A DNA stretch of 64,000 bases from Loxodes magnus (Eukaryota > Ciliophora > Karyorelictea > Loxodida > Loxodidae), in the NCBI GenBank assembly GCA_946699065.1, contig CAMPDV010002435.1, positions 1 to 64,000 on the forward strand, in the 5' to 3' direction. The position numbers and the translations under genes are program-made. A model generated the notes under the pieces. It worked only from the letters and a program-made list of their open reading frames with translations. It was not told where the DNA came from and made no database searches. Of this stretch, positions 3,001-27,722 are shown one piece after another. Numbering within the stretch: the stretch's first letter is position 1; every line of letters begins with the position of its first letter.

Positions 3001-3320
3001 AATTAACTGATCTACTCTACAGATGTTTAGCCTATGACCAGAATATAAGACCAGATATTGATAGTTTCCTGAGTTAGATAGAAAGATTAAAGCAAAAGTG
3101 AAATCCTAAAGAGTAAGAGAGAGATATAAGTTATTAGGAATATAATAAAATGATAAAGGAAGAAGAAGGTATTAACAAACAATACTAAGCTTTAGAGAAG
3201 AAGGTTATAACAGAAGGATTTAAAGAGATAAATTTTGCAAATTGGAAGATAAACGAAAGTAAGGAGAAGAAGAGCTGATGAAATAAGTATTTGGAAGATG
3301 ATATTATTAAATTTTATTAA
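80..3320 (+). pseudogene. TPR-pseudokinase gene A, frame-interrupted
   Basis: With TAA/TAG read as Gln and TGA as Trp, the ATG at 80 opens a protein starting MEETYQYCQKAAQLYQEG. It runs into about 16 TPR units of 34 residues (102 bp each). A C-terminal kinase-like domain follows, with a YGIIYLIT glycine-loop region, an ALKIF lysine, IHKEMKSINILLD in place of HRDxKxxN, PFG in place of DFG, HQWMAPEQFE (P+1/APE) and SDIWSLG. HRD Asp is Glu and DFG Asp is Pro, so catalysis is unlikely. The best reading changes frame twice: near 1818, where the paralogue-like DPNYA reading needs one more base, and again near 2110-2130. This copy is therefore either a pseudogene or carries assembly errors. Homology with paralogues ends at KKSWWNKYLEDDIIKFY, then TAA at 3318-3320. 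What is inferred: a scaffold or signalling protein; no substrate can be named. Confidence 0.8.
181..1800 (+). repeat. 102-bp tandem array encoding TPR units of gene A
   Basis: About 16 near-identical 102-bp units encode 34-residue TPRs of the type KG-AL-LGKYNEAL-SYDIAIKLDP. Two variants of the second half alternate: GSALFNLGKYNEAL and GLALNNLGKYNEAL. Divergence between units is very low in the middle, which points to recent unit duplication or gene conversion. TAG codes Gln inside most units, while two units near 1580-1720 carry TAT AGC (Tyr-Ser) instead. Confidence 0.9.
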
Positions 3321-3830
3321 ATAATTTACTATCTTAAATAATTAAATTATAACCTTCATTATTATCTACTTTAATATGTATTATGATTGCTTTATTAAAC
3401 TACTTACTATAAAGTCAAATATAAATACTAGTTTTCTTTTAATTTTTCTTAATAAAATTTCGTGATATTATTTATTTAATTTTAGTTAAAAAATAAAGAA
3501 TCATAACTTAACTTGTTAATAATAAGCTAACCGAATAAAAGACACTAAATTTAATTTTATTATGATTTTCTATTAAGAAATCTATTTAAAAAAGTAACTA
3601 TTAAGTGTACATTTTTTGAGTTATCTAAAAGAAGAAAGAAACTAAAATGATAGATATATAACTACATTTTATAAAATAGTTTTATTAATCTTCTAAGTAT
3701 GAAAATAACTAAGTATACAAATAAATCAATAATCAAATTAGATATAGCATTAATTCCTTAGATAAATCAAAGTTTGTTTATTTTAAGAGTAATTAAAACA
3801 GATTATAAATTAATTTTATTTGAATTGTTT
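3321..3830. other. AT-rich intergenic stretch
   Basis: This stretch separates pseudokinase A from the retroelement ORF1. I see no conserved motif, repeat unit or RNA-like structure in it. Confidence 0.5.
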
Positions 3831-3831
3831 T

Positions 3832-3852
3832 GTGGCGCCAATTAGTCACCAC
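3832..3852 (-). other. terminal stem-loop of retroelement (copy 1)
   Basis: GTGG at 3832-3835 pairs with CCAC at 3849-3852. On the minus strand the element reads GTGGTGACTAATTGG then CGCCAC. It is related to, but shorter than, the 30-nt stem-loops at 31444-31473 and 35341-35370, sharing GTGACTAA in the minus sense. It overlaps the TGA that ends the upstream ORF1, so it sits at the 3' terminus of a minus-strand retroelement. Confidence 0.55.
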
Positions 3853-4781
3853 TAAAAAGAAGTTTTAAAGTTATCTTTATCTTGCTTGTTTCTAGTTCTA
3901 GGATTCTTGAGTCTTGCTCCTCTGATCTTTCATCTCCCACTATATTTTATTTTAACTCTATCTCCAAATTCTTCCAGTTCAAGGTTACTTTTCAATCTGT
4001 AGATTTCTCCATTTGTTCTACATCAGATCTGGTTCTTGCTCTTTCTTATTCTTTGCTAGACTTGTTTTTTCCATGTAATTTCTTTTACTTTACGAAACTC
4101 ACCGCAGTTCTTCCATTTGTACCATTTACTTTTACAATAGTAGCACAGTTTCACAATCCGAGGTTTTTGATTAGTTTTCATCTTAACTTAAGGATTCTTC
4201 TCGATCTCCATCTTATCAGATAGAATTTACTCCAATGGAATTTGCTAACTTTGGAAGCTTTTCCGACTTTGTAAGATATTTTCGATCTGCAAGCTCTAGT
4301 CTTTAATCTTTTGCACTTAGGAGTTCGTCTAACTAAATTACTCTCGTTAGTAATTCCAAAGAGCGTCGAGTTCCCTCTCCTAATTGGCCATTCTAAGATC
4401 AAGTGTATCTTAAATTCCATGAGAGATCAGCTCCGTCAACTTCGTGTTCTCCTTGCAAAGCTTTTTAACCTCTTCCTGGAGGTTTAGTACTACTTTTATG
4501 AGCTATTCCATGCTCATCTGACCAGAAGGATTAAATTAAGAGACTTCCTGGTGGAGAGCAAACTTCATCTGCTTCCTCGGTTTTTCATTTGAGGTTGGGG
4601 TTTCCGTATGGGCTGTCTTTAAGGTTATTTTTTGTTAATCTTGTTAAGTTTCAGGTTTTTATTAAGAAGAAGATTAAGGTTATTATTAAGAAGACAGAGA
4701 AGAGATAGTTTCCTGCTTCCTCTCTTCCTTTTTGGCTTAGGAAGAGGTGGTATAGAAGCCTTTCCTGAAACTTTATTCCAT
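3846..4781 (-). CDS. LINE ORF1-type nucleic-acid-binding protein
   Basis: A single uninterrupted 311-codon frame under the recoded code starts at the ATG at 4781 (MEQSFRKGFYTTSSQAKKEE). The N-terminal third is rich in Ser/Gln. A predicted coiled coil follows (QEEVKKLCKENTKLTELI, then MANQERELDALW). A Cys-rich motif LCYYCKSKWYKWKNC has the CX2CX4-x-X4C spacing of a zinc knuckle, with Tyr in the His position. The C-terminus is basic. Coiled coil plus knuckle is the layout of nucleocapsid-like ORF1 proteins of non-LTR retrotransposons, and the shared stem-loop ties it to the LINE at 35-37 kb. No reverse transcriptase follows: the frame ends in TGA (3846-3848) inside the stem-loop, so this is an ORF1-only or internally deleted element. 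A host CCHC protein is the alternative. Confidence 0.6.
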
Positions 4782-7220
4782 TTTGCTGAATTTTTTTTAA
4801 AGATATTATAAATAAAAGCTTAATTATTGTTATAAGATTAATTTCTTTATAATAAAGAGAATCTAATACTTATTAACTAAAATTATATAGTTATAAGCCT
4901 TTTATTTAATGGCTATCTTATCAGTCTTCTAAGCAAGGTCTGTAAGTTTGAATTTTTTAAAGTTTAATTGGTTGTAATAATTAAATGTACCATAATATCA
5001 TTAGATTTTTTAAATAAGACATTCTAATTACCTATTTTTATTATTTTTGTCTGTTCTTTTTAGAGATTTTTTTTAATTTTACAAATATTTTCTTATGTTT
5101 TACCAAGTAAAAATGAATAAATAAGCAATCTTAAAGATAACTTGGATGAGTAATATTAAAGCTATTAATTTAATTAAATAATTATTACAAAGAAAAAACT
5201 TATGATTTTTAGTGATATTTAGAATAGCTAGGAACATAAATAAAGTCTATTAATTACATTGTAGAGTTAGATATAATATATGCTTTAATTTATTAAGCAT
5301 ATACTCTATTATAATAACTCTTACTAAAAATATTTAAAAATTATACTTAAAACTTAAGTCTTTATTAATATCATTAAAAATAGATTAAAAGGATAAACTT
5401 ATTTTAAATAATGTATTAAATTATTAAAATATACTTTCAGATTAAAAATCATTCCAGCAAGCTTTAAAAAGAAACTTTAATTATTAGCATTGAATATATT
5501 TACCAATATCATCTTGAACAGATAACAATTTAAAACATACATAGTGAAGAAATGGAACTTTAAATCATATTTTGGCGAGAGCAATGGCAATTTTCTCAGC
5601 TAAGCCTTATTAAGATGAATTCAAATATACTGACAATAATATCATTGAGAGTTTTAGTCTTATTTTTATTGGAAAACTTGCTAGTTAAATAGAAAATAGA
5701 TAATTATCACACTTACAATTTTTTTAATTTAAAAGAGAATAGCAGAGATAATTTTTAAAGAGTATAAAACTAAAATTTCTTAATTCTGAGGAAATTATAG
5801 CTAAGTCTATAGTATATTAAAGCTGAAAAGAGTAAAAGATTTAGATCTTTTCTACTAATTGTAATTTAAAAAGTTTAAGTTTTACTTAACAATTGAAAGA
5901 TGGATAAAAAATTGAATAGTCATAAACACCTGATTTGCAAGGCCTAAAAATGTATATGAGATCGAATCAATAGAGGAATAAAAATACCCAAAGAGTTTTA
6001 TAACTTAAGCTATTTAATTAGAATTTCTAGTTAAAAAAGATAAGTAAAGAAAACGTCAGAATAAGAATATTTAAGCAGAAAATAAGAATATGCAGGAAAA
6101 TAAAATGATTGAAAGTTCATGAATAAAGAAAAATAATTCTAAAATGTAAAGATTAGTTCTATTTTTCCAATCTAAAAATTTAAGCTTAATTAATATAATT
6201 CATAAATCATACAGACAAATTAAAATATAAAGAACAGCTACTAGAGAATTATACTTAAAAATAAGGATAATTTGAAAATATATTTATCATGAATAGCTAT
6301 AAGAGCAAGAATATAATTAAAATTTTTTCTGCTAGCTAGCAAAAATTTACTAATAACATTATGCAAATTTTAAAATATTTAAGTCCAGTCTAAGCAACAC
6401 TTTTATGGATATAGTAGAAACTAAAGTTGTAAAAAAATGCAGGAAAACTTCAATGTGAATATTTAAAAAGTAATTTTAAAGACCACAAAAAAGCAATATA
6501 ATAAGCTAAAAATTTTTTAGATTAACCAATCAACCAATCAACATCAAATGATTTATTGCATCTGCATATCTTTTCCATCTTTTTTTAAATTGCCTATGTT
6601 ATTATTTGTAAAAGCCAATTTATATACTGCATTATAGACATAATAAGTAGTCTATCACTTTTAGTATTTTCTAATATTGTTAAGAGATAATCCTTTTTTA
6701 TAGTAAATGCAGCATAATTAATGCCGACCTTTATTGCAATATTCAAGCAATTAATTTATTCTAAATAACTTCGTATTTTAGTAAGGGAATCTGCTCTGCC
6801 AGTTTAAAGACTCTTCGTATTTCAAATCTTACTAAAGTGTAATCTTTGTTACTATGTGCAATGACTCTTCTTGATTTAAGCTAGCTAATAATAATATTAA
6901 AAAAGTCTACTTTTCTTAGAAACTTTCCAAATACTTAAGAGAGATACTGTTATTAAAATGTACCAAAGCAATATTTTGGTAAAGTTGCATTATTTTATTT
7001 TATTACTTTTTTGTTTCTTAATACTTTGTCTATCTATTAAGAGAGGTAGGTTTGTTAAAAGATGTACTAAAGATATGAATAAATTAAGATATAGCATAAG
7101 ATAGATAATTAAAATGATAAAAATAGATAATCAGAAAATAAAGATAATAAATGTAATAATTCTTTAATTATATAGTTTAGAGTAAGATTAATATATCTAA
7201 TTAGACTAAATATTAATTTA
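4782..7220. other. AT-rich stretch without recognisable gene
   Basis: I find no domain, tandem repeat or RNA gene here. Short stretches near 5550-6130 look mildly gene-like in composition, but no frame gives a recognisable family. A palindromic run near 5262-5310 (TATATGC/GCATATA) is the only obvious local structure. Confidence 0.4.
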
Positions 7221-7229
7221 TAATTATAT

Positions 7230-7508
7230 ATACCATAGCTTCGTCATATTTACCTTATTTTTACAATTTATTTCCTTTACTATTATGAGTAATTGCAAGA
7301 TTAGGATCTAGCTGAAGAGATATATCATAGTTCCATAAAGCTTCGTTACATTTGTCTAACATATCCAATGCAGTTCCTTTATTATTATAGGCAAACGCAG
7401 GATTAGGATCTAGTGTTATAACTACATAAAAGTATTCAATCGCTTCTTTGTAATTTCCTTCTTAAAATAACTAAAAACCTTTGAATTATATTAATCAACT
7501 TCTTCCAT
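7230..7508 (-). pseudogene. truncated TPR gene fragment E
   Basis: The minus strand from the ATG at 7508 reads MEEVDQYNSK. After a one-base frame change it gives GFQLFQEGNYKEAIEYF, YVVITLDPNPAFAYNNKG and LWNYDISLQLDPNLAITHNSKG. That is the N-terminus plus about two and a half TPRs of the family found in genes A-D. It stops in AT-rich sequence without a kinase domain, so it is a gene fragment. The N-terminus resembles that of gene A (MEETYQYCQK). Confidence 0.75.
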
Positions 7509-8067
7509 TTTATAAATAGAAATAAAGGTAATAACTTGAATAAAGATTTGATATAATATGAATATATAGCATTATAGTTTAAATTAAGATAACTAGATAT
7601 TAATTTTTATTATTGTGATTGTATCTATTAAGCTACTATTTCTTGTTATTCTAGTTACTTTTTATAGTTTATCTATAATACATATTAAAGTTTACTAATA
7701 AGACTTATTCATTTTCTTTTACTTTAGTTATTGATAACTGTGATTAGTATTATTAATAGTAGCATTTTCTTATGTGAAATATACACTTTTAATTAATATC
7801 TAGAAGTTTGGCATTTAGGATATTCTTTTAGAAATATTGAATGATAGTGATATAAACTAGGAAGTTACTGATATATGAAAAACCGAATGAATATCATAAT
7901 TATGACTACTAGTTTGAATTGCTACTCTGTATGCTTATATTTATTTCTATTAAATAGAAATCTATTAAGAAATCATAAATATGAAGAGTTTAAGTTGATT
8001 GACATTTATAATTCTTTATTATTTAATAAGCACTTAGTAGCTTCTTATTATTTATGCTTATAAAAAA

Positions 8068-8919
8068 ATGGAAAAAAACCCGGGAATCTAAACCTTGAAT
8101 TCTAACCTTAAAGATCAATCTTAAATCTCAGTTAACTAATAAGAACCAAGAATTCAAAAAAGATAAATCTACTCCTTTTAAGGATTGGGAAATACGAAAT
8201 TTCCTAGCAAACTGAAAAAGCTTGAGAAGCCCCACGAGCAAGACATTATTTAGCTTTATTCATTAATTGAGAAAATGAATACCGAAATATAGATCCTGAA
8301 GGCGGAAAACTTGAATCTTCGGCTTCTTTTGTAAGATAGAAAAAAGGAAGATCAAGACTTGGTAAGTAAAGTTTAGTTTTAAATTGAAGCCTTAACTTCC
8401 TAATTTGAACTATTAGAAATAAACCTTGAAGCAAATCAATAGAAAATTAAAGAAGAAATTCGATTACCAATCAAAAAAAACTAACTTTAATAAGAAAAGA
8501 TGGAAATTGAAAAAATGTAAACAGAATAAAAATTTTAATTCAAGCCCTTAATAAAACGTTGCTATTGTTGTCAAAAGGCTGGACATTTTTGGAGGTAATG
8601 TCCGAAGTGAAGAAGAGTGCTTGAGCAGCATTGTAAATAATTTGGAACATCGAGGAGGCTATATTGTAACTACTTTGGAGGTATTTACAGAAAGAAGTTG
8701 ATATTAGATGATTCAATTGTGACACTAATCAAACAGGATCTTGGTAATTAGCAGTAACAGAATAAATAGCTTTAAAAGGACAACAATGACCTTAGAATTT
8801 GTTTAGAGAAGCTGGAGAAAAATTACAAGAAGATGGAAGAACAATTCTATGAGCTTATTGAAGAGAAAGAAGAATTATCTCAGTTTGAAATTGATTCAGA
8901 TGAAGACATGTACAATTGA
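8068..8919 (+). pseudogene. second ORF1-type retroelement protein with CCHC knuckle
   Basis: From the ATG at 8068 the frame gives a Lys/Gln-rich N-terminus and a long coiled coil (QDIIQLYSLIEKMNTEIQIL onward). A perfect CCHC zinc knuckle CX2CX4HX4C lies at 8560-8601 (CYCCQKAGHFWRQC). The 3' part, read in another frame, gives a second coiled coil (LEKLEKNYKKMEEQFYELI) and an acidic tail DSDEDMYN ending in TGA at 8917-8919. It has the same architecture as the ORF at 3846-4781 on the opposite strand, and it appears broken. It is followed at once by a perfect inverted repeat at 8944-8977. No RT is attached. The knuckle alone does not tell ORF1 from a Gag-type protein. Confidence 0.6.
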
Positions 8920-8943
8920 GTATGAATATAAAACTTTTATTGT

Positions 8944-8977
8944 CTTTAATTTGAGGAAACATTTCCTCTAATTAAAG
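8944..8977 (+). other. 34-nt terminal hairpin after ORF1
   Basis: CTTTAATT (8944-8951) pairs with AATTAAAG (8970-8977), and GAGGAAA (8953-8959) with TTTCCTC (8962-8968). The helix has 15 perfect pairs with one T-T mismatch and a 2-nt loop. It lies 24 nt after the putative ORF1 stop. It could be a retroelement 3' end or a terminator. Its sequence is unlike the stem-loops of the minus-strand elements. Confidence 0.5.
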
Positions 8978-10200
8978 ATGACCCTAACCCTTATAGTTAA
9001 AATTAATTAATTATTTATGCTTATTTATTTCTTTATTTTCTACTATTTTACTCTTTTATAAGTTTCCAATTTGCTTTTTCTATCTTGTTTCTTAAAATTC
9101 TCTAGAGATTGTTTATAGTTTTAAGTTTAGATAATCTTAGTCTAGCTTTCTAAAAAATTAAAGATCTTTACCTATTTTGTAAATAAGAGGTACTAGTAGT
9201 AAAGCTTACTTTATAAGTATACTAATAAGTAAAATAGAAAGTATTAATGTTGTAATAAAGTAATTATACTAATCCTTTAGTTTTAATAATCATAAAGGAA
9301 ATTATTTTAATTAGTACAGAAACTAAAATAAAATCAAATTTGTTTCTATTTAATATTAGTAAAAAGTAATAATAAAATAGTGATAAGATGCTTAATAATA
9401 AAGAAGTGCTAATTTATTTTACTTAAAATATAATAATAACCAGTTGTTCAAGTATTAGTAAGATATTTGATACAATTAATTCTAAAGGTTATTCTAAAAA
9501 AGGATGTTATGTATAATATCTCTTCACAATTTATCAAATATAAGATATTTAAATAAACAAATGCTTATTTTTTTATCTCTAGCTGATGTATAATTAGAAA
9601 GTATAGATTTTATATTCTTACTTATCTATTAATATAGATGTATCTATACATTTATATAAATCTGTTTAAAAAGCTTAATTATTTTCTTTAAACATTTAGT
9701 AAATTTTTTATATTCTAAAAGATAGTAAAGCTACTAATAGCTTTCTATATATAATACTTAAAATTACAAATCCATTATTTAATAAAGAACAAAGTAAAAT
9801 ACTATTACAATAACTAGTGTCATTTTGTTCTATTCAGTTTATAATAAATTTATTCAAACTTAATTTATTGATTAAGTAAAAAGTCTCTATATTTACATTT
9901 CAGTCCTAAAGAAAAACAAATGCATTTAATATAATAAAACTTAAAGTAAAAATAAATAATTATATTTAAGCTATTTCTTGGATATATTTCATTTTGCATT
10001 TTGTATATCTTAACTATAAATTTGAGACTTCTAGATAAACATATGATACTGTTTTATCTCTCTTATTACTTAAATATTATTACTAAAAGAATTTTATTTA
10101 AATTAATATCCAATATATTTGATAATCTTCTTCAAATATAAATGCACTTTATTTATTTACTTTCTACTTTAATTTAAATAGTATTCTTTTAAATAAACTA
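8978..10200. other. AT-rich stretch, nothing recognised
   Basis: Short A/T runs without conserved motifs; I see no gene, repeat array or RNA in it. Confidence 0.5.
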
Positions 10201-10204
10201 AGTC

Positions 10205-10700
10205 CTCTCTTTGTTTCTAATAAAGTAAAATGTAGAGTTGAAGAAAAAATAAACAAGAGTAAGTGAACAATGGCTAGAAAGATTTTATAGTTGCCTATCT
10301 CCGTTTTTAGTGAGTCTAGTTACATAGACTTCAACTGACTTCTATTTGAACGTATTTTGGTAAAACGTTTTTTCCGTTTCTACTTTAAAATAAGGAAAGA
10401 AGCTATGAATTATACAGAATTTTATATAGGAAAATTCTTTGAATGAAATTGGAATAAATAATCTTTTTACTTTTAGTAAGTAAAAAGAGAATATTATTAT
10501 TTAAAAAAATCACATTAATTAAACAGAGCCTTAGGTTGAGCAAAATGAAAACTTTAGAGGAGATGATGAAATGTAAGAAGATTTAAGAAACCAATGAAAA
10601 GAGAAGTTTGCTATTAATAAACTTAAACTTGTATAAATGAAGTAAATGAATTAAATCAGAAGCTTCATACAATAACTCCTTTATTAAAGTTAATTATTAA
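10205..10700 (+). repeat. dispersed repeat X, copy 1
   Basis: This segment is clearly related to 40405-41400. Shared landmarks include AAAAAATAAACAA, GTTACATAGACTT, a TTTTTCCGTTTC / TTTTTCCATTTC pair, GGAAAGAA-CTATGAATTAT, and a block around AGAAGCTTCATAC near 10650 and 41360. Copy 2 is longer. Neither copy gives a recognisable protein, and identity looks intermediate, so the duplication is old. Confidence 0.65.
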
Positions 10701-11099
10701 ATTATATAATTTAGATAGAGAAGTGATCCTTCCAATGTGATTGATTTAAACTCTGAAACCAGGAAGTATCCCATGTGAAGAAATGAGCAAGAATTTAGGC
10801 AGGAGTCAAGCTAGACAAAATTGAGGTATCAGGTAATGTTATGTTGTACGATAAAAGATAATAAAGTTTGCTAAGGCTGCACTCCGATACTGGCTCTATC
10901 GAAGACTTGAATTTTCAAGGGATGCTAGCACTGGAGAAAAATGTTATAAAGAAATTTTTTAAACTTTAAAAAATTTTAATTAGTATTCTGCGCGTTTTGT
11001 AGTGGTACGTGTCCTATAATATAATTTTTTTAATTAATTTTAATATTTCAACATTATAATTATTTTCTATCAAATCAATGAAATCTAATCCAAATAATT

Positions 11100-14000
11100 G
11101 AAGGAACAAGAATAGCAAAAATGCGAGAGAAGCGAAGGTGAAGAGTAGAATAAGAGAAGAACCAAAACTAGAAAAGAGATTTTACACTAATAATCTTAAA
11201 TTAAATAAATTAGTAGACAGTTTCAACTCTTATTAATACCTTCCTAAAGTTGAAGGAACCATAGAGTGTCAATTCTTCCTATCACGTCTTCCAATTGCAA
11301 TAATCTTCTTAATAAATTCAGCCTTAATAACTCTTAAAGCTTGATATGAGGCAGATCAAAATTCTAAAACTTTGAATAGAGTTAGCAAGTAAGTAACAAT
11401 AAATCGTTAGGTAGCAGAAAAACGTTTCTTCGATTTTGAATTTATCAACCTGGTTACTCAGTTTACCCTATTGATTTTCAATCTTTAAAGAAGCATAAAA
11501 GCTGAAACATGTGAATAAGAAACTTATAGAAAAGATCGAGAAGAAAAATTAGCAAGAAGAATCAACAAATAAATCTTAAGGGCGTCAGATAGATACACTC
11601 TTCAATTCTCAAATGACAAGAGCCGTTGTTTGGTTGAAATAAATGAGAGAATAAATCTATAAGAAGAATACCTCAGATTTTCCAAATACTAAAGAAAAAG
11701 GAAACTGAAGTAATGTAAATGGAAATTGAAGTGAAAGCAGAAGAGACTGAAATAAATATTTATTAAACAAGAAAACAGGCAATCACTGGAAATTCTTACA
11801 ACACTTTTTAAAAACAGCGAAAAATACAAAATATAGAAAAAAATATAGATAGAAAATTATGAATCTAAATGACAAAGCTTTATCATAGTAAAGAGAAGTG
11901 ACTTAGGAATATTCATGGAAGAATAATGGATAATTAATTTTCAAAGGAATATTTGAAATAAAATTAAGTATGTTTATGTATAATTGTAATAAACTCTAAT
12001 CAAAATGATTAGAATAGACTAAAAGCATTATTTTCAAAGGAATAGTTGGTATGATATAGCTGTTGATTGTTGCAATTAGGATTATTAATTAATGAAATCA
12101 AAGAGACTTATAGTTATATAAAGGACGTATATGCAAAGGGATTTTTATCTCAAATTTACTAATTATAATTCTTGTTTTAGTCCAAAAAGGCAAAGAGATA
12201 GTAGACAGAGGAAGATTAACAACAATTAATTAAAGCTTTTAACTTATCTAAATATTATAAAATAAAAAGAATTTACAAGAGAAAGGGAACTACTTTCAAC
12301 TAGAATACTTTTACTAAGTCTAAGAGAAACAATATGATATCATCTAAAAAACTTAACTAGATATCTTATATTTGGTCGATAAGTTACCGGAAAATGATGC
12401 TAAAAGATAAAAAATTCTATAAACACTACTAAAAGCATTAATTGAGGGGATTATTAGAAGAGTACTGATAAATATCCTTCTGAATAGAAATAAAAATGTA
12501 AGATTAAAAGTTAGGATATATTTATTTAAGCAGATAATGCTAATTTATTTTTTTTAGAAGGCTCTTTACAAATTTTTAGATCTTAAATAAAAATATAAGT
12601 AAGCTATCAGATATTTATTACAATTAAGATTGATTAAGTATAGTAAAGGAAATCGTAATAAAGTACATTGAAAAATGTGACTGTAACTTCTTCTTATGAT
12701 AATCATACTGTGACAATTAAGCCAAATTTTTATGAAAACGGCAAGGAATTCTTTGAAAGTGAAATAAAAGCAAATTAAAAACTATAGCTTAAATAGATCT
12801 AAGAGTAAATTCAGAAAGGATAGTAAAAAAGGATGAGCAAGGTAAAATAAACAGAACAGATATAGAGTTAGAATATTAAAATGAGAAATTGGTTAAAGAT
12901 ATTTAAATGTAATAAAAATTTAGTAACTACAGATTAATAAAAAACTAAATACCTTCAAATATATTTTTAAAGTATTACTAATTAGAGCAATAGAAAAAAG
13001 GATAAAGGAAAAGAATAAGAGTAATAAAAGAAAGTAAATGTCTACTCTTTAACTACTTGGTAAGTTAGTGTAAAATCTGTTAAAATAACTTTGGTTTGGA
13101 CTAGATGACATCAAAGTCGAAGTAATAAAAATGCTAATAATGAAATTTATAAATTACTTATGAGATTTATTGCTGAAAACATACAATACTAAACAAACTC
13201 AAACAAGTAGAATCTTTCCATTTATCAAAAAAAGATTAAAGAGTAAATGAAAAAATTTTAGGTTTATCGCTCTTATAAATTTTATCCTAAAAGTATTTGA
13301 AAAATAATCACTTAAAGAATTTATGGTTACATTTACAAGTCTAAGATTAAACAACCTACACAGCAAGGATTCGATACTATTAGAAGGGATTTACAATTTG
13401 GACACTTAAGTTATAGCTATTTATAATGAATTGTCTCTAATCATTTATTCTAATCTAGGGTTACATTTTTTTTGAGGAAATATTATCGAGAAATTTGAGA
13501 TATAGCAAGAAAATTTTGCAAAAAAGTCGTATGATCTAATTATGGTCTTTATTTTTTATGGCATTTTAATCAGATATTTGGAGACTTATTAAAAACAACT
13601 TGACTTTAAAATTTATGGATGTTTATTTGTTTCCAAAGCAGGGCAGATGACTTATTTTTACTGTCTGATGAAGATAATATGAATTTATTCTTTAGACCTC
13701 ATTTGAAGTATTTTTAGTTAAATTGAGTAATAATAATGAAAAATGATAATTTATCTTCTTTAGAAGTAAGCTTTAAAAACATGAAAATTCAGACTTCATT
13801 ATAAAGCTAAATAATTAGTAAATTTAAGTATCAAGAAAGTCAACTATAAGGAAATGCTATTAATGAAATGAAAACTATAAAGCTCATTGTTAAGAAGTTG
13901 CAATGAAGTACAAAAATTGTGTGAATAGATTTATTTAAAAGTTATCTAAATATTAAATTATTAAACCTTAGAACTTTAAATACATTTTACGAATATTTAT

Positions 14001-16065
14001 ACTACCGAAATCAGAGTATGGGCCAGAAGTAATTTCTTGGGCTATTTTTCGTAGTATAAAAAATAAAATATGATATAATCATAGGCTAAATAAAAGTAGC
14101 AAGTTATGCTTTAAAAAGTCCTAATTCTACTTTTAATAAATCTTGTTTTATTGACTTTAATTGGTTACTCTTTGAATATTAAATTACAATGAGTTATTTA
14201 AAATTATACATAAAATACTTTACAAATAGGCTTTAACTTATCTTAACTCTGATGTAGCATTTCTCTTTAACAAGACAAAGAACGATAATTTTAGTTATTT
14301 AAAGAATTTAAAATTATTGACTTAACTCTTTCAAATAAACCTTTAAGATGCTAGTAACAGCAAATGATATCTAAGCAAAATTTGAAATAAAATAGAATAA
14401 AAATTATATTAAGATAATATGGGAAGATGAGTGCAATACCAGCTTTCGAAATATTCTGAAGATCAAGATAATAGCGTTGATTAACAGAAGTTTCCATTTT
14501 ATACTTTCAATATACTAAACAGACAATGATTAGAGAAATAGTGTCAATTTAAAAATTAAGGATACTTAGTTATAGCTTTTAGAATGATTTAAAATAAAGA
14601 AACTAATAAATATAGCACTCTGAAATTTTGCATTTGTATGGGAATAAAACATATTTAACATATTTCTTAATCTGAAGATATGCAAGATCTAATCTAAGAA
14701 TTTAAAGATTTCATTAATTATGATTTACTTAAAATTTTTCTTACAACCAAATTACATCAATCATAACTTCCCTACCCGAAGATAACTTTAATAAATTGGT
14801 TTAAGAATTAAGTATTATCATTTGAAGTTGCTTCGTAGAAGAATTTAAATTTGATAGCAAAGTGACGAACAAATGGAAAAGCTGTTGGAGCAATTTGGTT
14901 ATAGAGCAGATTAAGTGATTAAAGGAGATTGAATAAAGATTATTGAGAAGAAAATTGTCAAGCATTTTTATTACTTATATGAAATATGGTAAAATTTTAT
15001 TAAGATTTTGAATTAAACATACATAAAAAATAGAATACTAGGAGAAAGATAAACTCTCTTAAACAATGCCTTACTTATACTCTGATTATAGAGATATAAA
15101 AAAAGCAATAGTTAAGATACAAAAGCGTTACTTCTAATAAAATAATAATTTGATAGATGTGATATTAAGCTAAACTGATTAAAAGCATTCATAAGTTAAG
15201 TATAATTTGGTAAACTAAGAGTTGATTTAAAGTTTGAAGTTATTGCATTAATTACTAGTTTAGTAGGAAATATTTGGAATAGAAATGAAATATTTTGAGA
15301 ATATATTAATTGCATGTTTATCCCATTTAACTAATAAAGGTTTTCTATTTTCTATTCTTTGATAATGACTTTTAAAATGTTAATTCTAAAGCAGCAACAA
15401 GATGGTAGCTCTTATGGATTAAATTGTAAAGATTATACTTTAAAGTATACTTTAAAGAATAGTGAAGCAAATAAGTACTTGATTCTAAATTTGGTTAGAG
15501 GAAAGTAATTATTTAAAACTATGTATGGATTAGATTAACCAAGTAGATACTTTTAATCTACTAGCATTTATCTTCATCTTATTTATTTACTATAATGCTT
15601 ATTCTATTTTCATATACTAGATACTGAGTCATTTTACTATGCTTTATATTTAATACAGCAATACAATATTTAGTAAACCATTAATAGAGGAAATCATACT
15701 ATAATAAACTATCTTTCCATTAATAAAACTAGGGATACTTTAAGGATTGCCATAATATTAAAATTAAGTATCTAAAAGTATTTAGAGAATGAAAGACAAA
15801 TTATAAAGAAATCTGGTAGAAAAGCAATAGTAAGTCTAATAAGAATAAAAGAAGTAATCATTTTAAAATGTTTAGTGCTAATCAAATCTAAATTTCTACA
15901 TTCAAAAAGTTTAAGAAATTATCTGCTAAAGGACTAAGAAATAGTCACTAATAAGTTTAGTAACTCTAAACTAGCAAAAGATATCTAAATAGTAAATGAA
16001 AAAAGAGTGATTTAAGATAAACTTTTAAAAGAGTTAATTGTTTTCTCAATCTCAGCTTTAATAAA
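11100..16065 (+). pseudogene. long decayed coding region of unknown family
   Basis: Several long stretches have few TAA/TAG/TGA codons in one plus frame, and their composition looks like protein. Examples are 11160-11700 (SFNSYQYLPKVEGTIECQFF, FINLVTQFTLLIFNL), 13940-14860 (ILPKSEYGPEVISWAIFRSI, YPKITLINWFKN) and 14870-16060 (EQMEKLLEQFGYRADQVIKG, LVGNIWNRNEIFWEYINCMF). Frame changes separate them. A string near 13640 (ADDLFLLSD) looks like a reverse-transcriptase active site, but nothing around it supports this. I do not recognise the family. It could be one very large gene or several fused remnants. The region ends where the mini-intron-like array begins on the other strand. Confidence 0.35.
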
Positions 16066-16068
16066 AAA

Positions 16069-18462
16069 TTACACTCTAAATATAAAAACTCACTTAGGTA
16101 ATAATTTTACATGCTATAATTAGATAAATAACAGGCTAGCGTAAAAATCTGTTCATATAAATAATTACAAATGACATTCTCTAATAAATAATTACCTAAA
16201 ATGAGCTACTTACTTTCTTTAAAATAAAGAATTACCCCCTATAAGTATTAAATAGATAACATTCTACATAAGTATACTTACTGACTAAAATTGAGAAAAT
16301 ACACTCATATAAATAAATACAACCTTAATTAAAATAAAACCATCAAATTATTTATTCGTTCAATCAAAAGTAAAAATGATACCTAGAGTAAAAAATTACA
16401 TCTGAGGTATTTTATACCAGCAATTAATAATAAAAGATACCAACTAAAATAATATTTGAATACGAGCTATAATTAATTTATTACAAGCTATACAAATAAA
16501 ATTAATTTTACCACCTATAAATATTTAAATTACCTTACATTCTATAAATATTTAAAATATCTCACGCTCTATAATATTTAAAATATCTTACTCACTATAA
16601 ATATATGTAAAGTTTTACCTTCTATAATATTTAAAATATCTTACCTTCTATAAATATTTTAAATATTTTACTCACTATAAATATTCAAAAAATATTACTC
16701 ACTAATGATATATAAAATATCTTACTCACTATAAATATATGTAAAGCTTTACCTTCTATAAAGACTTAAAATATCTTACCTTCTATAAATATTAAATATC
16801 TTACCTTCTAAAAATATCTAAAATAGCTTACAATCTATAAATAATGAAACTTCTAGCCATCTTTAAGTGTAGAATATTACTCACTATTCATATTTAAATA
16901 GCTTACATTCTATAAACATTTAAATATCTAACCATCTATAAATATTTATATAACCCTACATTCTATACGTTATTTAAAATGCCTTACTCTCTTTAATTAT
17001 TTAAATATCTTACAATCTATAAAAAAGTTAAATACTTTACAGTCTATAAATATTCAAAATACCTTACAGCCTAAAATATTAAAATAGTCACATTCTTTGA
17101 TATAGAATATTACTCACTATATATTTAAAATGCTTTACATTCTATAAATATTAAAAGAATCTTGCTCACTATAAATGTTTATAGCTTACTTACTATAAAT
17201 ATTTAAAACCTATTACTCACTATCATTATTTTCAATATCTTACAGTCTTTAAATCATTCAAATATTTACCCCCTATAAATAATTACATACTCGCTATAAA
17301 TCTTTATACCTTACTGTCTATCAATATTTCAAATAAATTACACACTGTAAGTAATTATCAATTCTTACCATCTTAAAGTGTTCAAATATTTTACACACTA
17401 TAAATATTTAAAAGTTCCTACCCCCTATAAACTTTTAAAATATCTTACATTCTATAAATCATTCTAATATCTTACCCCCTATAAATGTCTCTAATATCTT
17501 ACAATCTATAAATATTTAAACTTCTAGCCATCTATAAATATTTAATATATCTTACTTCCTTTAATCACTTAAGATATATTACTACCTATAAGTATTCATC
17601 AGCTCTTACGCTCTTTAATCATTTAAATTATAATACTCCCTAAAAGATTTAATATACCTTACTCACTTTAATCATTTAAATCAATTACACACTATAAGTA
17701 TTTAAATCAATTACACACTATAAGTATTTGCAATATCTTACATTCTATAAATATTCAAAATTCTACATCCTATTCATATTTAAATATTACCTTCTATAAA
17801 TATTTTCAATGTCTTACCTTCTATCAATATTTTCAATATCTTACCCCCTATAAGTATTTCAAATATCTTACATTCTATAAGTATTTCAAATATCTTACCA
17901 ACTATCAAAATTTCAAATATCTTACATTCTATATTAAGTACTATGCCCTCTTATTTTCATTTCTTACCTTCTTTGTTTGTAAATGTTACTTGCTAATTCT
18001 AAGTAATTTACTTTCTAATTTGATAGATTACCGCCTTTATTTATTTCCTTACAATCTTCTTTATATTTTACATTCTAATTTTATGTTTTACTTCCTTTAT
18101 TTAGATACCTTTTACAATCTATTTTTATAATTTTACATTCTAAAAATTCAATTTTAATACTTTCTAACTTAAACCTTTACTCACTTTTATTAATATGTTA
18201 CATACTTTTTTAAAAATTACCTCCTATATTTTATTCTTAACTTTGCGTAAATTCCTTTTAACCTATTGTTTACATTTTTTACTTTCTCCTATTTAGATTA
18301 TTTATTACTTTCTAATTATAGATTATCTTATACGTTCTATTCTAGCATTAATTACTCAACATTGCTTTCATTTTATTAAAAACTGTTTATTTTATTCATT
18401 ACTTTCTAGCTTTACTTTTTACCATCTGTATTTAATCTTACTTCCTATAATTATATTGCTAC
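16069..18462 (-). repeat. array of intron-like units with 3-nt spacers
   Basis: On the minus strand the stretch parses into consecutive units that begin GTAA(G) and end (TAT)AG, separated by exactly three bases. Worked examples next to the gene: unit 18445-18462 (18 nt), spacer 18442-18444 (GAA), unit 18426-18441 (16 nt), spacer 18423-18425 (ATG), unit 18406-18422 (17 nt), spacer 18403-18405 (AAA). I hand-parsed about 75 units between 16490 and 18462 and some ten more, less regular, down to 16069. Units nearest the gene (17940-18462) are mostly 14-22 nt and varied. Those farther away are mostly 20-24 nt with a core such as GTAAGATATTTTAAATATTT then ATAG. Spacer triplets vary (AAT, AAG, TGA, GGG, ATT, ATG, TGT and others) while both borders stay fixed. 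The orientation matches the RING-UBL gene. The borders look like splice sites of very short introns, with single-codon exons between them. Confidence 0.75.
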
Positions 18463-18973
18463 AACCATTCATCCTTAGCTCTAACTAAACTTCTCCTCAA
18501 TCCTCCATTTAATTTAGACTTAGCCATCTAACTAACTTTTCTTTTTATCAATAGAGTTCATAAAAATCAGCATCGATTCCTTCTGCTTATTCTATTTTTT
18601 ATTTCAGTTATTCAATAGTTTCTCCTTCCTCTACTATTAAGTTAATTTCTTCTTTATTTTAAGTGTAAATCTAAACTTTTATTCCTTTTCCCTCTTTTTA
18701 TAAGGTTATCTCCTTTTTAGTTTCTTCAAGATTAAGCTAATTGTATTCTCTTTCCTTTTTACTTTATTGGTCTTACTCATCTTTTGAACTTTTACCTTCA
18801 TTGAAATCACCTTTTTCACATTTTCTATTTGGACACTGGTTTGAACCGTCTCTTAAGTATTCTTCTAGAACACATTTTTGGCATACTCGATGTCCACAAG
18901 GAAGGGTCAGAGAAATGGCTATTGAATAGTCGAAACGACATAAGCATTTGGAACAGCTTTAAGAAAGCCCCAT
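18463..18973 (-). CDS. RING finger plus ubiquitin-like domain protein
   Basis: The 170-codon frame from the ATG at 18973 starts MGLSQSCSKCLCRFDYS. A RING-type zinc site is visible at C7-x2-C10, C26-G-H28, C31-x2-C34 and C47-x4-C52 (LPCGHRVCQKCVLEEYL). A charged linker (about 55-95) leads to a ubiquitin-like fold at about 98-170 (IKVQIYTQNKEEINLIVEEG, ETIEQLKQKIEQAEGIDADF, ending VQLELRMNG). The last part aligns with the [30 protein letters not shown] and LHLVLRLRGG regions of ubiquitin. TGA stands for Trp in LYWQKEKL and MEDWGEV. RING proteins usually act as E3 ubiquitin ligases, so an E3 with an internal UBL is the likely role. The exon ends ...GGT T before a GTAG...ATAG unit. Removing that unit would join T to GA and give TGA directly after the last UBL residues, which may be the true stop. 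The last RING Cys pair has unusual spacing (x4). Confidence 0.85.
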
Positions 18974-19841: not shown

Positions 19842-20131
19842 TTGTTGTTCGAAGGTGAACAACAAGGTCATCTTCATCAGAGGTTGGGGAAGTTAAGTAC
19901 CCATAATCGACTTTATGTCTTCCTCTGCTTTGGTTTGGCCTCGAGACATAAGATTCTTGGACCTTCGACACTGGCTTGGCTTCGTTTATTTCTAATTCTG
20001 GAGCGAAAAATAAATAATATTGCGAGCTTCATCAGAGGTGGGGAATTTAAGTACCCATAATTGACACATGTCGTCCTCTGCTTTGGTGATGCAATGAGAC
20101 ACAATCCTGCCATGTCCTTGGACCTCCAGCA
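19842..20131. ncRNA. GC-rich duplicated hairpin element, RNA candidate
   Basis: This is the least AT-rich island in the window. It opens with a perfect hairpin: TTGTTGTTC (19842-19850), a 6-nt loop, then GAACAACAA (19857-19865). Two related units follow about 155 bp apart, starting near 19873 and 20028. Both contain CTTCATCAGAGGT, a GGGGAA-TTAAGTACCCATAAT block, and CCTCTGCTTTGG. Within each unit CAGAGG and CCTCTG can pair and GGGG faces CCC, so a folded RNA is plausible. The GGAAGTTAAG-like piece recalls 5S rRNA, but the rest does not fit. Strand is unknown. A SINE-like repeat or pol III transcript is an alternative. Confidence 0.45.
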
Positions 20132-20159
20132 AGTATTAAAGATTACGGGTATTCTAAAA

Positions 20160-20280
20160 TTATATCAGTATTGAACATTTTTATCAGTACTGAATAATTA
20201 TACCAGTATTGAACAAGATTTATCACTATCTGATAATTTTATCAGTAATAAACATTCTTGTCAGTATGAAACATTTTTTT
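20160..20280. repeat. about 20-bp minisatellite
   Basis: Six imperfect copies of a unit like TTTATCAGTATTGAACAT follow the GC-rich element directly. Spacing is about 20 bp and the copies have diverged by several substitutions each. Confidence 0.65.
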
Positions 20281-23060: not shown

Positions 23061-26000
23061 TTATAATTTTATATTATAATATTCAAAAAGTTTCACTCTT
23101 CAACTCTTCTTCTCTTTACTTTCACTTAACTTCTAATTCTCAAATTTTGTCTCTAGCATTCCTACTTCTTATCTGCTCGTCTAATCTTGCTTTTAATATT
23201 ACTTGCTATGATCAATTTCTTCCTATATCCCTTTATTATATCACTACTAACTTATATCTCTATCTAACCTTTAAGGATTTCACTTTTGTTTTAATCTTTC
23301 TACCTAACTTATAAAGCTATCTATATCTGGTCTTATGTTCTAGTCATAAGCTAGACATCTGTAGAATAGATCAGTTAATTCAGATTCTTATAATATTTCG
23401 TTTGAAAACATAGGAATCATTTTATTAATATAGACTATTTATTTTAGTTATTCTTATTCATTTATATTGGGATAAAGTAATCCTTCATTGAATATCTCAA
23501 CTCCGATACAACCTAAAGATCAGATATCACTCTTTTAGGTAATTTTCTTTTCAAACTGCTCGGGTGCCATCCACTAATGTAATCCTCTTTGTTCGATATT
23601 TGTTAATCAGTTATTATTATCGAATAATCCAAAAATTAGTATCTTTGGGGAGTCTTCATTATCTAATAGAATATTTAGAGATTTTAGTTCTTTATGTATT
23701 AAGTTTCTAGAGTGAAGTACCTTTAAAGCTTCTGCTATTTAGCTAAGTAAATTAAGTTTGTAATAATATCTTGTAGCAGATTGTTTTTAACTATCTTTAA
23801 ATAACTACTTTGTCTGGATTATTTAGAATAAAGTTCAATTACACTAAAAGTCTAGTAAAATACAAAATTAGTAATTTAATTACTCTTAAGTATCAATAGC
23901 AACTCCTACTAGTCTTTAAACTCTTTAATTGCTTATATATAAAAGTTCTTAGCATTCTAAATAGAACTAATCTATTAGTTTCTGCTGATCACTTTATTAG
24001 GTAAATACTTTAAGTGCATAATTAGATCTATTGATAGAAATAAAATAGATAGTTCCAAATTAATCCTTAGCTAATACTTATAAAGTATTTAGAAATTTAC
24101 TATTAGGAACTAAATCTTTGTAGTTTCATATTCTTAATTGAGATTAGCTATCTATACTACCACCATTTTATATCAAGAATTGTCAAATATCTTCTATACC
24201 TATTTTATTTTTTACTTAGGCAGGTAAAATAATATCTCTAGCTTAGGGAATTTCTACATTTTTATTAAATTAAAGTGCTTAATTAAAGCAATCAAGTGCT
24301 TCTTTATTCTGATTGTAAGATTGTTGCTCTAGACCTTTTTGTTATTATACTTCCGTAAACTAAGGATCAAGCTAGATAGTTTTATTAAGGCACTAGATAG
24401 ATTCGAGATGTTTTCCTTGCTTAGAGAGAGAAAAATCTGAGGATTTTGAATCAGTAGAACCAAGTTTAAGTGTTATATCATAACTTTAGATAGCTTCGCT
24501 ATATTTGTCTAGTTTTTCCAGCGCTTTTCCTTTATTAATATGATTTTCTGAAAAACTTGGAGCGAGTTAAAGAGCTTTATCATAACTCTGAATAGCTTCG
24601 TTATATTTACCAATTTTTTCCAATGCTATTCCCTTATTATGATAAACAGCTGCCTAATTAGGATCAAGGTTCAGAGCTTTATCGAAACTCTAGATAGCTT
24701 CGTTATATTTACCTAGTTTTTCCAGTGCTTTCCCTTTATTATGATAAATAGCTGCCTAATTAGGATCAAGGTTCAGAGCTTTATCGAAACTCTAGATAGC
24801 TTCGTTATATTTACCTAGTTTTTCCAGAACTTGTCCTTTATTATAATAAACAGCTGCCTAATTAGGGTCGAGGTTCAAAGCTTTATCAAAATTCTAGATA
24901 GCTTCGTTATATTTACCAATTTTTTCAAGCGCTTTCCCTTTATTATGATATGCAACTGCCTAATTAGGATCCAGATTCAGAGCCTTATCGAAACTCTGAA
25001 TAGCTTCGTTATATTTACCAACTTTTTCCAATGCTATTCCCTTATTATGATAAATAGCTGCCTAATTAGGATCAAGGTTCAGAGCTTTATCGAAACTCTA
25101 GATAGCTTCGTTATATTTACCTAGTTTTTCCAGAACTTGTCCTTTATTATAATAAACAGCTGCCTAATTAGGGTCGAGGTTCAAAGCTTTATCAAAATTC
25201 TAGATAGCTTCGTTATATTTACCAATTTTTTCAAGCGCTTTCCCTTTATTATGATATGCAACTGCCTAATTAGGATCCAGATTCAGAGCCTTATCGAAAC
25301 TCTGAATAGCTTCGTTATATTTACCAACTTTTTCCAATGCTATTCCCTTATTATGATAAATAGCTGCCTAATTAGGATCAAGGTTCAGAGCTTTATCGAA
25401 ACTCTAGATAGCTTCGTTATATTTACCTAGTTTTTCCAGAACTTGTCCTTTATTATAATAAACAGCTGCCTAATTAGGGTCGAGGTTCAAAGCTTTATCA
25501 AAATTCTAGATAGCTTCGTTATATTTACCAATTTTTTCAAGCGCTTTCCCTTTATTATGATATGCAACTGCCTAATTAGGATCCAGATTCAGAGCCTTAT
25601 CGAAACTCTGAATAGCTTCGTTATATTTACCAACTTTTTCCAATGCTATTCCCTTATTATGATAAATAGCTGCCTAATTAGTATCAAGGTTCAGAGCTTT
25701 ATCGAAACTCTAGATAGCTTCGTTATATTTACCTAGTTTTTCCAGAACTTGTCCTTTGTTATAATAAACAGCTGCCTAATTAGGGTCGAGGTTCAGAGCT
25801 TTATCAAAATTCTAGATAGCTTCGTTATATTTACCTAGTTTTTCCAGTGCTTTCCCTTTATTATGATAAATAGCTGCCTAATTAGGATCAAGGTTCAGAG
25901 CTTTATCGAAACTCTAGATAGCTTCGTTATATTTACCTAGTTTTTCCAATGCTATTCCCTTATTATGATAAATAGCTGCCTAATTAGGATCAAGGTTCAG

Positions 26001-27722
26001 AGCTTTATCGAAACTCTAGATAGCTTCGTTATATTTACCTAGTTTTTCCAGTGCTTTCCCTTTATTATGATAAATAGCTGCCTAATTAGGATCAAGGTTC
26101 AGAGCTTTATCGAAACTCTAGATAGCTTCGTTATATTTACCTAGTTTTTCCAGTGCTTTCCCTTTATTATGATAAATAGCTGCCTAATTAGGATCAAGGT
26201 TCAGAGCTTTATCGAAACTCTAGATAGCTTCGTTATATTTACCTAGTTTTTCCAGAACTTGTCCTTTATTATAATAAACAGCTGCCTAATTAGGGTCGAG
26301 GTTCAAAGCTTTATCAAAATTCTAGATAGCTTCGTTATATTTACCAATTTTTTCAAGCGCTTTCCCTTTATTATGATATGCAACTGCCTAATTAGGATCC
26401 AGATTCAGAGCCTTATCGAAACTCTGAATAGCTTCGTTATATTTACCAACTTTTTCCAATGCTATTCCCTTATTATGATAAATAGCTGCCTAATTAGGAT
26501 CAAGGTTCAGAGCTTTATCGAAACTCTAGATAGCTTCGTTATATTTACCTAGTTTTTCCAGTGCTTTCCCTTTATTATGATAAATAGCTGCCTAATTAGT
26601 ATCAAGGTTCAGAGCTTTATCGAAACTCTAGATAGCTTCGTTATATTTACCTAGTTTTTCCAGAACTTGTCCTTTGTTATAATAAACAGCTGCCTAATTA
26701 GGGTCGAGGTTCAGAGCTTTATCAAAATTCTAGATAGCTTCGTTATATTTACCAATTTTTTCAAGCGCTTTCCCTTTATTATGATATGCAACTGCCTAAT
26801 TAGGATCCAGATTCAGAGCCTTATCGAAACTCTGAATAGCTTCGTTATATTTACCAACTTTTTCCAATGCTATTCCCTTATTATGATAAATAGCTGCCTA
26901 ATTAGGATCAAGGTTCAGAGCTTTATCGAAACTCTAGATAGCTTCGTTATATTTACCTAGTTTTTCCAGAACTTGTCCTTTGTTATAATAAACAGCTGCC
27001 TAATTAGGGTCGAGGTTCAGAGCTTTATCAAAATTCTAGATAGCTTCGTTATATTTACCAATTTTTTCAAGCGCTTTCCCTTTATTATGATATGCAACTG
27101 CCTAATTAGGATCCAGATTCAGAGCCTTATCGAAACTCTGAATAGCTTCGTTATATTTACCAACTTTTTCCAATGCTATTCCCTTATTATGATAAATAGC
27201 TGCCTAATTAGGATCAAGGTTCAGAGCTTTATCGAAACTCTAGATAGCTTCGTTATATTTACCTAGTTTTTCCAGTGCTTTCCCTTTATTATGATAAATA
27301 GCTGCCTAATTAGTATCAAGGTTCAGAGCTTTATCGAAACTCTAGATAGCTTCGTTATATTTACCTAGTTTTTCCAGAACTTGTCCTTTGTTATAATAAA
27401 CAGCTGCCTAATTAGGGTCGAGGTTCAGAGCTTTATCAAAATTCTAGATAGCTTCGTTATATTTACCAATTTTTTCAAGCGCTTTCCCTTTATTATGATA
27501 TGCAACTGCCTAATTAGGATCCAGATTCAGAGCCTTATCGAAACTCTGAATAGCTTCGTTATATTTACCAACTTTTTCCAATGCTATTCCCTTATTATGA
27601 TAAATAGCTGCCTTATTAGGATTTAATGCAATAGCTATTTCAAAGCATTCATTTGCTTCAAGAAACTTTCCTAATTTTAATAAACAATTCCCTTTTCGAT
27701 TATATTGATCAGCTTCTTGCAT
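23061..27722 (-). CDS. TPR-pseudokinase gene C, intact
   Basis: The frame is continuous from the ATG at 27722 (MQEADQYNRKGNCLLKLGKF) to TAA at 23061-23063, 1553 residues. About 31 TPR units (KALEKLGKYNEAIQSFDKAL, NLDPNQAAIYHNKG) fill the first two thirds. A linker with GIEDIWQFLIQNGG follows, then a kinase fold: FGTIYFIS loop, YALKVF lysine, LIHKELKSLNILLD for the HRD loop, LIFGLFD for DFG, HQWMAPEQFEKK, KSDIWSL and a C-lobe ending in a Lys-rich KKSW tail. HRD Asp is Glu and the DFG Asp is Ile, as in its paralogues. The Trp of HQWMAPE is TGG here (23571-23573) and TGA in A, B and D. TPRs bind peptides, so a large scaffold pseudokinase is inferred. Many Gln are TAA/TAG. Confidence 0.9.
24480..27700 (-). 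repeat. TPR-encoding array with 306-bp higher-order repeat
   Basis: The basic 102-bp units group into 306-bp (three-unit) blocks repeated almost identically, for example starting near 24831, 25137 and 25443, and again near 26259, 26667, 26973 and 27381. Blocks with extra single units between them (steps of 408 bp) are also present. Divergence between blocks is close to nil, so expansion was recent. Array length is likely to vary between alleles, and its size is at risk in assembly. Confidence 0.9.

Follow-up and report, generated by a model that had tools for sequence, protein, structure and literature searches.

We identified a gene in Loxodes magnus whose middle appears to be a series of spliceosomal mini-introns separated by single-codon exons in phase 1, extended by growth of an intron-plus-codon satellite. 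The gene lies on the minus strand of the stretch of DNA that was analysed (64,000 nt, hereafter the window), and we put the probability of this reading, which is drawn from sequence, at roughly 0.8. The array would be the middle of a protein-coding gene, in which a first exon encoding a RING finger and a ubiquitin-like domain (RING-UBL) is followed by the mini-introns and then by a last exon (Table 1). The mini-introns, mostly 16-26 nt, would be parted by exons that are nearly all one codon long and in phase 1. The spliceosome would take out the introns one by one, joining one codon per step.

The spacing of the units is the most direct evidence. Between positions 16069 and 18462 the minus strand contains 87 AG-NNN-GT sites (13.6 ± 3.7 expected from 200 dinucleotide shuffles), in agreement with an earlier note on this DNA that counted 80-90 intron-like units with one-triplet gaps. 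A 3-nt gap is the sole strongly enriched AG..GT spacing among those of 0-12 nt in the same shuffles; the runner-up is 0 nt (22 observed versus 13.9 ± 3.3 expected). Site density on the minus strand is 33, 37, and 19 per kb in kb 16-18, and 0-9 per kb in other parts of the window on both strands. The excess is found in the upstream flank (17930-18462; 19 sites versus 3.0 in shuffles), in the core (16508-17929; 52 versus 8.1), and in the downstream flank (16069-16507; 15 versus 1.6). A splice parser that leaves exon length free reads 81 of 93 exons in the window as exactly 3 nt, versus about 3-5% in shuffled sequence, and gives 83 of 95, 110 of 117, 78 of 88, and 101 of 110 at four other loci of the family (L009, L012, L015, and L014, respectively). 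In the window gene model 88 of the 91 exons after exon 1 are 3 nt long, and the three longer ones measure 27, 21, and 21 nt. The 3-nt rule is interrupted in places by single-step gaps of 31-117 nt, mainly in the 3' flank and at the longer exons. The first unit starts at 18462, the base adjoining exon 1, just as the earlier note had placed it at the end of the ubiquitin-like domain.

Table 1. Features of the RING-UBL gene in the window, in order of transcription
Feature	Positions	Strand	Basis
Exon 1, 511 nt, starts with ATG; RING finger and ubiquitin-like domain; ends in phase 1	18463..18973	-	Pfam, gene models
Intron 1, 18 nt, GT..AG; junction codon T/GA	18445..18462	-	gene models
Upstream flank: A-rich introns (16-23 nt), dissimilar to one another, between exons of 3 nt; two exons are longer	17930..18444	-	
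27-nt exon, upstream flank	18356..18382	-	27 nt in 14/14 models of the 3n-restricted parse
21-nt exon, upstream flank	18242..18262	-	21 nt in 11/14 models; L012, L013, and L021 differ
Core: about 52 units of the 27-bp satellite	16508..17929	-	TRF; alignment without an AG/GT requirement
Downstream flank: about 15 dissimilar T-rich introns	16056..16507	-	window model
21-nt exon, downstream flank	16362..16382	-	common to 12 aligned sequences
Initial part of the probable last exon, SEIEKTINSFKSLSQI...	15694..16055	-	spliced frame of intact paralogs

The array differs in kind between its middle and its outer parts. The earlier note held that it is not a simple satellite, which stands for the outer parts, where units are dissimilar and mostly 14-26 nt long, and fails for the middle, which is a decayed 27-bp satellite. 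Each core unit comprises a 24-nt intron (GTAAGATATTTTAAATATTTATAG-like) and a freely varying triplet; TRF reports a 27-bp period with 54.4 copies and 67% match. The upstream flank, with intron 1 included, has 23 introns in the window and 20-24 across 14 gene models, and roughly 11-21 introns follow the last canonical core unit in the downstream flank. On the sense strand, intron interiors are 56-62% A in the upstream flank and 49-54% T in the downstream flank in all four loci measured (17930-18444 and 16056-16507 in the window).

Exon 1 has Pfam matches to ubiquitin (PF00240, 2.5e-6, residues 101-142) and to RING (PF13445, 5e-5; PF00097, 2.6e-4). Its length is the same in 14 of 14 modelled loci, so that the first intron splits a codon between its first and second bases. 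In the window, this exon is open from the ATG to its end under genetic code 27; a frameshift in the ubiquitin-like domain that is apparent under code 6 disappears under code 27. Structure prediction from the single sequence was poor (mean pLDDT 44). A general protein search returned no homologues at E <= 1e-3 among 121 candidates, and neither an Rfam search of the window nor a DNA search of phage records gave a match. In paralogs that are intact, the last exon continues the spliced frame (L009 reads AEMEKTFNNFKYLSQ...); small indels shift this frame in L011 and in the L015 group. The 3' flank of the window copy is damaged: one acceptor is lost, one exon is reduced from 3 to 2 nt, and one intron is without either border. 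On these grounds the window copy is possibly decaying; its near-identical relatives probably share the damage.

Constraint on splice sites was assessed by aligning core units to the unit without demanding AG or GT. In four old cores (window, 52 units; L015, 53; L016, 72; L020, 59) the positions G+1, A-2, and G-1 are each unchanged in 236 of 236 units. T+2 is kept in 48 of 52 units of the window core (three C, one gap), versus interior mismatches at 189 of 936 sites (about 20%; Fisher p 1.2e-13 for splice versus interior positions). Interiors mismatch at 105 of 954 sites (11%) in L015 and 122 of 1296 (9%) in L016, with splice sites kept as in the window, and the splice positions of L020 are kept in the same way. 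Base changes at +2 number 18 in the four old cores, and each of them turns T into C and creates a GC-AG intron; one more unit is gapped. Among interior T changes, 64 of 225 are to C. GC-AG is an exception tolerated by spliceosomal introns. The 18 changes are not independent, as L015, L016, and L020 share descent. Younger cores are mixed. L012 shows constraint (splice 1/320 versus interior 40/1440 mismatches, p 0.004), whereas there is no excess splice constraint in L014 (0/280 versus 9/1260) or L021 (5/292 versus 30/1314), and L009 leans in the opposite direction (4/224 versus 8/1008, p 0.25). Broken sites recur within some younger cores, with T at G+1 in 5 of 73 units of L021, G at A-2 in 3 of 56 units of L009, and A at G-1 in 21 of 230 units of L023; single broken splice sites also occur in L009, L012, L022, L023, L024, and L025.

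These younger cores bear on the best of the alternatives, in which splicing joins the single-codon exons of the flanks but usually skips the satellite core as one long intron, so that core units are optional. Such skipping would be frame-neutral, since core units share splice sites and phase and the frame survives whichever 3-nt exons are included. It would fit the almost free variation of core triplets between paralogs and the broken units in younger cores, which have been amplified in L023 and L021. However, old-core units retain both splice sites, save for the GC donors and one gap, despite their diverged interiors, and from this retention we predict that individual sites are used. We regard wholesale skipping of the core as unlikely.

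Exon lengths are held where intron lengths are not. When the parse is restricted to exons of 3n length, the first 23 exon lengths (3,3,3,27,3,3,3,21,3...) are identical in 11 of 14 loci, the exceptions being L012, L013, and L021, and intron lengths vary between loci with constant exon lengths. The flank exon pattern recurs when exon length is left free, in 20 of 21 loci (L045 was without an anchor). Exceptions in the free parse include GC or lost donors that are read as 26- or 30-nt exons (L009, L010, L014-L020, and L047) and a 6-nt variant at intron 7, where the acceptor is ambiguous and the next exon is either 3 or 6 nt. Odd exon lengths arise in L013 (11), L021 (33), L042 (19), and L044 (5); the values in L042 and L021 are those of the 27-nt exon of the upstream flank. 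Single splice sites are lost in L042, L044, and L047.

Both the genetic code and the intron lengths fit the organism. Searching this genome for chaperonins returned 29 matches, all with in-frame TAA or TAG and seven with TGA. As expected, this codon use matches the karyorelict code 27, in which TAA and TAG encode Gln and TGA is Trp or stop. Because 22 of the 29 matches have a single open frame across almost all of the domain, ordinary genes here may be intron-free over long stretches. Introns of L. magnus from RNA-seq have a mean length of 19.3 nt and a mode of 17 nt, 93% are at most 25 nt, and lengths of 3n are depleted, as a trend (PMC11441545). The upstream-flank introns of four loci fit this published range, with a mean of 18.8 nt over 92 introns, 91 of which are 16-24 nt and one a 39-nt parse artefact. 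Depletion of 3n lengths is absent in upstream flanks, where 25 of 88 introns are of this type (8 in the window, 4 in L009, 6 in L012, and 7 in L015, each of 22), about the chance level; the 24-nt core intron is also 3n. Among 122 distinct flank introns from four loci, G+1 is present in 122, T+2 in 120 (two C), A-2 in 121, and G-1 in 121, with a parser that favours such borders.

The suggestion of serial mini-introns with single-codon exons, already made in the earlier note, thus gains support in the sequence from old-core splice sites that are held, with GT changing to GC only, from exon lengths fixed in most paralogs, from phase 1 in 14 of 14 models, and from lengths that match the RNA-seq introns (PMC11441545). 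Counting against it are the broken sites of younger cores, the 3n length of the core intron, the T/GA junction, and the losses in the 3' flank of the window copy, together with the nucleotide divergence of flank exons, the weaker of the two frame tests, and the negative search for spliced retrocopies described below.

The evidence for coding comes from several comparisons. The phase-1 translations of the upstream flank are WGEIFEIMRKQYEQKSQNDFEKRVLKKYWKYFETRDE (L009), WNEIFNKMKAMLKQKSQKEFTQRVLKKYWKYCETKEE (window), and WKKIFEAMIKQYEQKSQNAFKQRVLKKFWKWNETREE (L015). Among four lineages, amino-acid identity is 0.639 in the phase-1 frame of the flank, 0.644 in exon 1, and 0.608 and 0.574 in the other flank frames; another frame scores higher in single pairs (frame 1 for the window and L015, frame 0 for L009 and L012). 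In a pairwise test, differing codons are conservative in the phase-1 frame only (mean BLOSUM 1.64 versus a null of 0.59, 0 of 1000 shuffles), and the synonymous fraction in this frame has P 0.031. A more stringent version, in which every codon column of 12 sequences enters once, is suggestive at most, with a mean BLOSUM of 1.01 in this frame (frame 2) versus a null of 0.57 ± 0.31 (P 0.08) and no synonymous excess. Nucleotide divergence of the flank exon triplets is about that of intron interiors; with low divergence absent, coding is supported mainly by phase, the constancy of exon lengths, and conservative replacements. An unspliced coding repeat that is read through is ruled out for the flanks, because the first 23 introns sum to 426 nt in the window, 429 in L009, 430 in L014, and 431 in L015, so the frame differs between paralogs. 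Avoidance of TGA in the joined triplets was considered as proof of frame 2 and rejected, as TGA is a sense codon in code 27 and triplets starting with GA are rare in young cores.

The junction codon T/GA, kept in 14 of 14 models, would be read as Trp under code 27 and could possibly be a stop. Coding would in that case end at the ubiquitin-like domain, with a real stop created by the splicing of intron 1, and the remainder would be 3' non-coding or untranscribed. The codon lies about where a ubiquitin-like domain of usual length would end, and UGA is the sole stop codon of this code, in a species with short 3' UTRs (PMC11441545). Against this, splice sites and exon lengths are conserved beyond the junction, and a UGA far from the poly-A tail is decoded as Trp according to the same study. 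In addition, another flank codon is TGA in the window and the L015 group but TGG in L009-L014. We consider an end of coding at this point improbable, somewhat more so than skipping of the core.

The core can also be viewed from the satellite side, and on the sequence evidence it would be satellite and introns both. Core growth would proceed by unequal exchange of the 27-bp unit (24-nt intron plus 3-nt exon), and each gained unit would make the protein one residue longer with the frame intact. Ageing units would diverge in sequence with their splice signals preserved, and the dissimilar introns of the flanks may descend from such units. The whole-unit homogenisation expected of a simple minisatellite is not what we find: triplets are diverse and flank introns dissimilar. 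Per-site diversity in all 14 cores is 0.46-0.66 in triplets and 0.004-0.25 in introns. At one extreme, the 24-nt intron of L022 is nearly uniform over 286 units, in which five triplet types alternate. The dissimilarity of flank introns indicates that splicing alone does not require the fixed 24-nt sequence. Ten younger cores have three singletons in triplets and 30 in introns, a ratio close to that of the sites (3:24); triplets are thus apparently not mutating faster now. Triplets were probably already diverse, and introns uniform, at the time the units multiplied. Blocks of up to eight consecutive triplets recur within the array of L012, a sign of multi-unit duplication. Between aligned loci, core triplets seem to evolve faster than introns; turnover of units could account for this, and we make no claim of a difference in rate.

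One tentative idea, which we hold to be possible and on balance doubtful, is that identical introns act as recombination cassettes, with exchange or conversion adding, dropping, and reshuffling single codons harmlessly for frame and splicing, such that the RING-UBL family keeps a region that is variable codon by codon. It would explain why triplets are diverse in 14 of 14 cores versus near-uniform introns in the ten younger ones. It would also explain the similar per-site singleton rates, with codon diversity that is old and carried along instead of arising by local hypermutation.

The array is a feature of a large gene family. Searched at the DNA level, the genome yielded at least 63 matches (the best 39 of 633 candidates were scored), which include at least 16 further full-length copies near-identical to the window as well as diverged pieces with 71-91% identity. 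The array is present in 25 of 25 loci examined, 17 of them diverged stretches, and in seven of seven further members at 91-70% identity (1/1 and 6/6). None was found in six arbitrary 6-kb stretches of the genome. A protein search of the genome with RING-UBL gave at least 151 matches (the best 150 of 2168 candidates were scored), a family size that makes comparative and polymorphism tests easy. On some contigs RING-UBL copies occur every ~50-116 kb; among the matches listed, C156 has seven and C1057 three. Pairing 48 hand-picked RING matches with 53 last-exon matches yielded 44 genes and left nine last-exon matches unpaired. In these 44 genes the distance from RING to last exon is 1.3-6.6 kb (median 2.3 kb), equivalent to about 11-207 core units by a rough calculation from span. 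The 14 modelled genes have 87-117 introns each, and by span other family genes have perhaps 50-250. A copy on C841 was considered as an intronless paralogue and ruled out, as the array is present there too. No spliced retrocopy was found by protein search or by a search of the genome with the spliced flank exons; the latter gave 53 matches, all in the last exon, and the longer ones reach into the preceding sequence.

The family also bears on the reading of the array as a non-coding satellite in which a conserved 13-bp motif, TATAG-NNN-GTAAG, is bound by a DNA- or RNA-binding protein and no splicing occurs. The core is indeed a satellite, and pure array stretches that lack gene flanks exist (L022-L024; L025 has the downstream flank only). 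However, flank units have GT, AG, and the 3-nt gap in common and not the 13-bp motif, and the base changes at +2 are of the one kind that spliceosomal introns tolerate. Moreover, the RING-UBL exon lies ahead of the array in 13 of the 17 diverged stretches, and the other four do not reach to that side or are pure array. A protein-bound satellite therefore seems very improbable. In L022 (contig C5090), an inverted junction at about position 7840 joins two long intron-like arrays head to head; it is either a real inversion or an assembly artefact. Tandem excision of the units at the DNA level during development of the somatic nucleus, the other possibility raised in the earlier note, seems scarcely credible: the host is a ciliate and unit borders are sharp, but the units are present in an assembly of 705,730,643 bases (705.7 Mb), whose size matches the published MAC assembly of L. 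magnus (706 Mbp) and not the MIC assembly (848 Mbp), that study reports no canonical IESs (PMC11441545), and unit polarity and borders are those of introns.

Several known systems resemble the proposed architecture of serial mini-introns in part. Introners are dispersed over genes, unlike the units here, which follow one another in the same orientation within one gene family, 3 nt apart. Introners and introner-like elements share with the array the multiplication of introns in one genome (PMC4457414). The micro-exon genes of Schistosoma mansoni are coding genes of very short exons (3-81 bp), but have introns of up to 5 kbp and exons of varying length (PMC10526429), whereas here introns are mostly 16-26 nt, nearly all exons are one codon, and the centre is a satellite; the likeness is one of architecture only, given an exon 1 of 511 nt. 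Ultra-short introns of karyorelicts and heterotrichs fall in the same length range, and the parts covered of the study that describes them make no mention of one-codon exons in series (PMC11441545). In the potato RdRp gene, tandem genomic duplication has been linked to intron gain (PMC4974935), but this is one case, versus dozens to hundreds of intron-plus-codon units here. The host gene SNHG14 of SNORD115/116 has tandem series of 29 and 48 consecutive introns, which carry snoRNAs in the host transcript (PMC11608373); its exons are not one-codon coding exons.

The earlier note knew of no described gene with dozens of consecutive 3-nt exons, and we likewise found no gene with runs of single-codon exons in the literature searched, which excluded most subscription journals and all preprints. 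Should transcripts bear the architecture out, the genes of this family would have roughly one intron for every codon along some hundred codons. Such genes would test the lower limit of exon length for the spliceosome and its ability to work serially through about a hundred 3-nt exons. They would also inform the question of intron origin, since an intron-plus-codon satellite would yield younger and older introns in one gene.

Other repeats and genes were observed elsewhere in the window. Upstream of the RING-UBL gene there is a degenerate ~19/39-bp repeat (TATCAGTATTGAACATTTT) at 20158-20278. Two similar stretches, 161 nt apart, lie at ~19860-20130, also upstream of the gene (GGTCCAAG...GCAGAGGA...ATTATGGGTACTTAA, read on the minus strand). 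There are four tandem arrays with a 102-bp period (34 residues), at 157-1817, 24482-27622, 33553-34869, and 42162-43582, with 12.9-30.8 copies and 77-94% matches. Three scanned ORFs of these arrays encode TPR proteins (Pfam), and the frame behind the first array also begins with TPRs. Soon after this first TPR array, a scan of 1902-16000 under code 27 identified a protein kinase domain (PF00069, 5e-31) on the plus strand at ~2319-3074.
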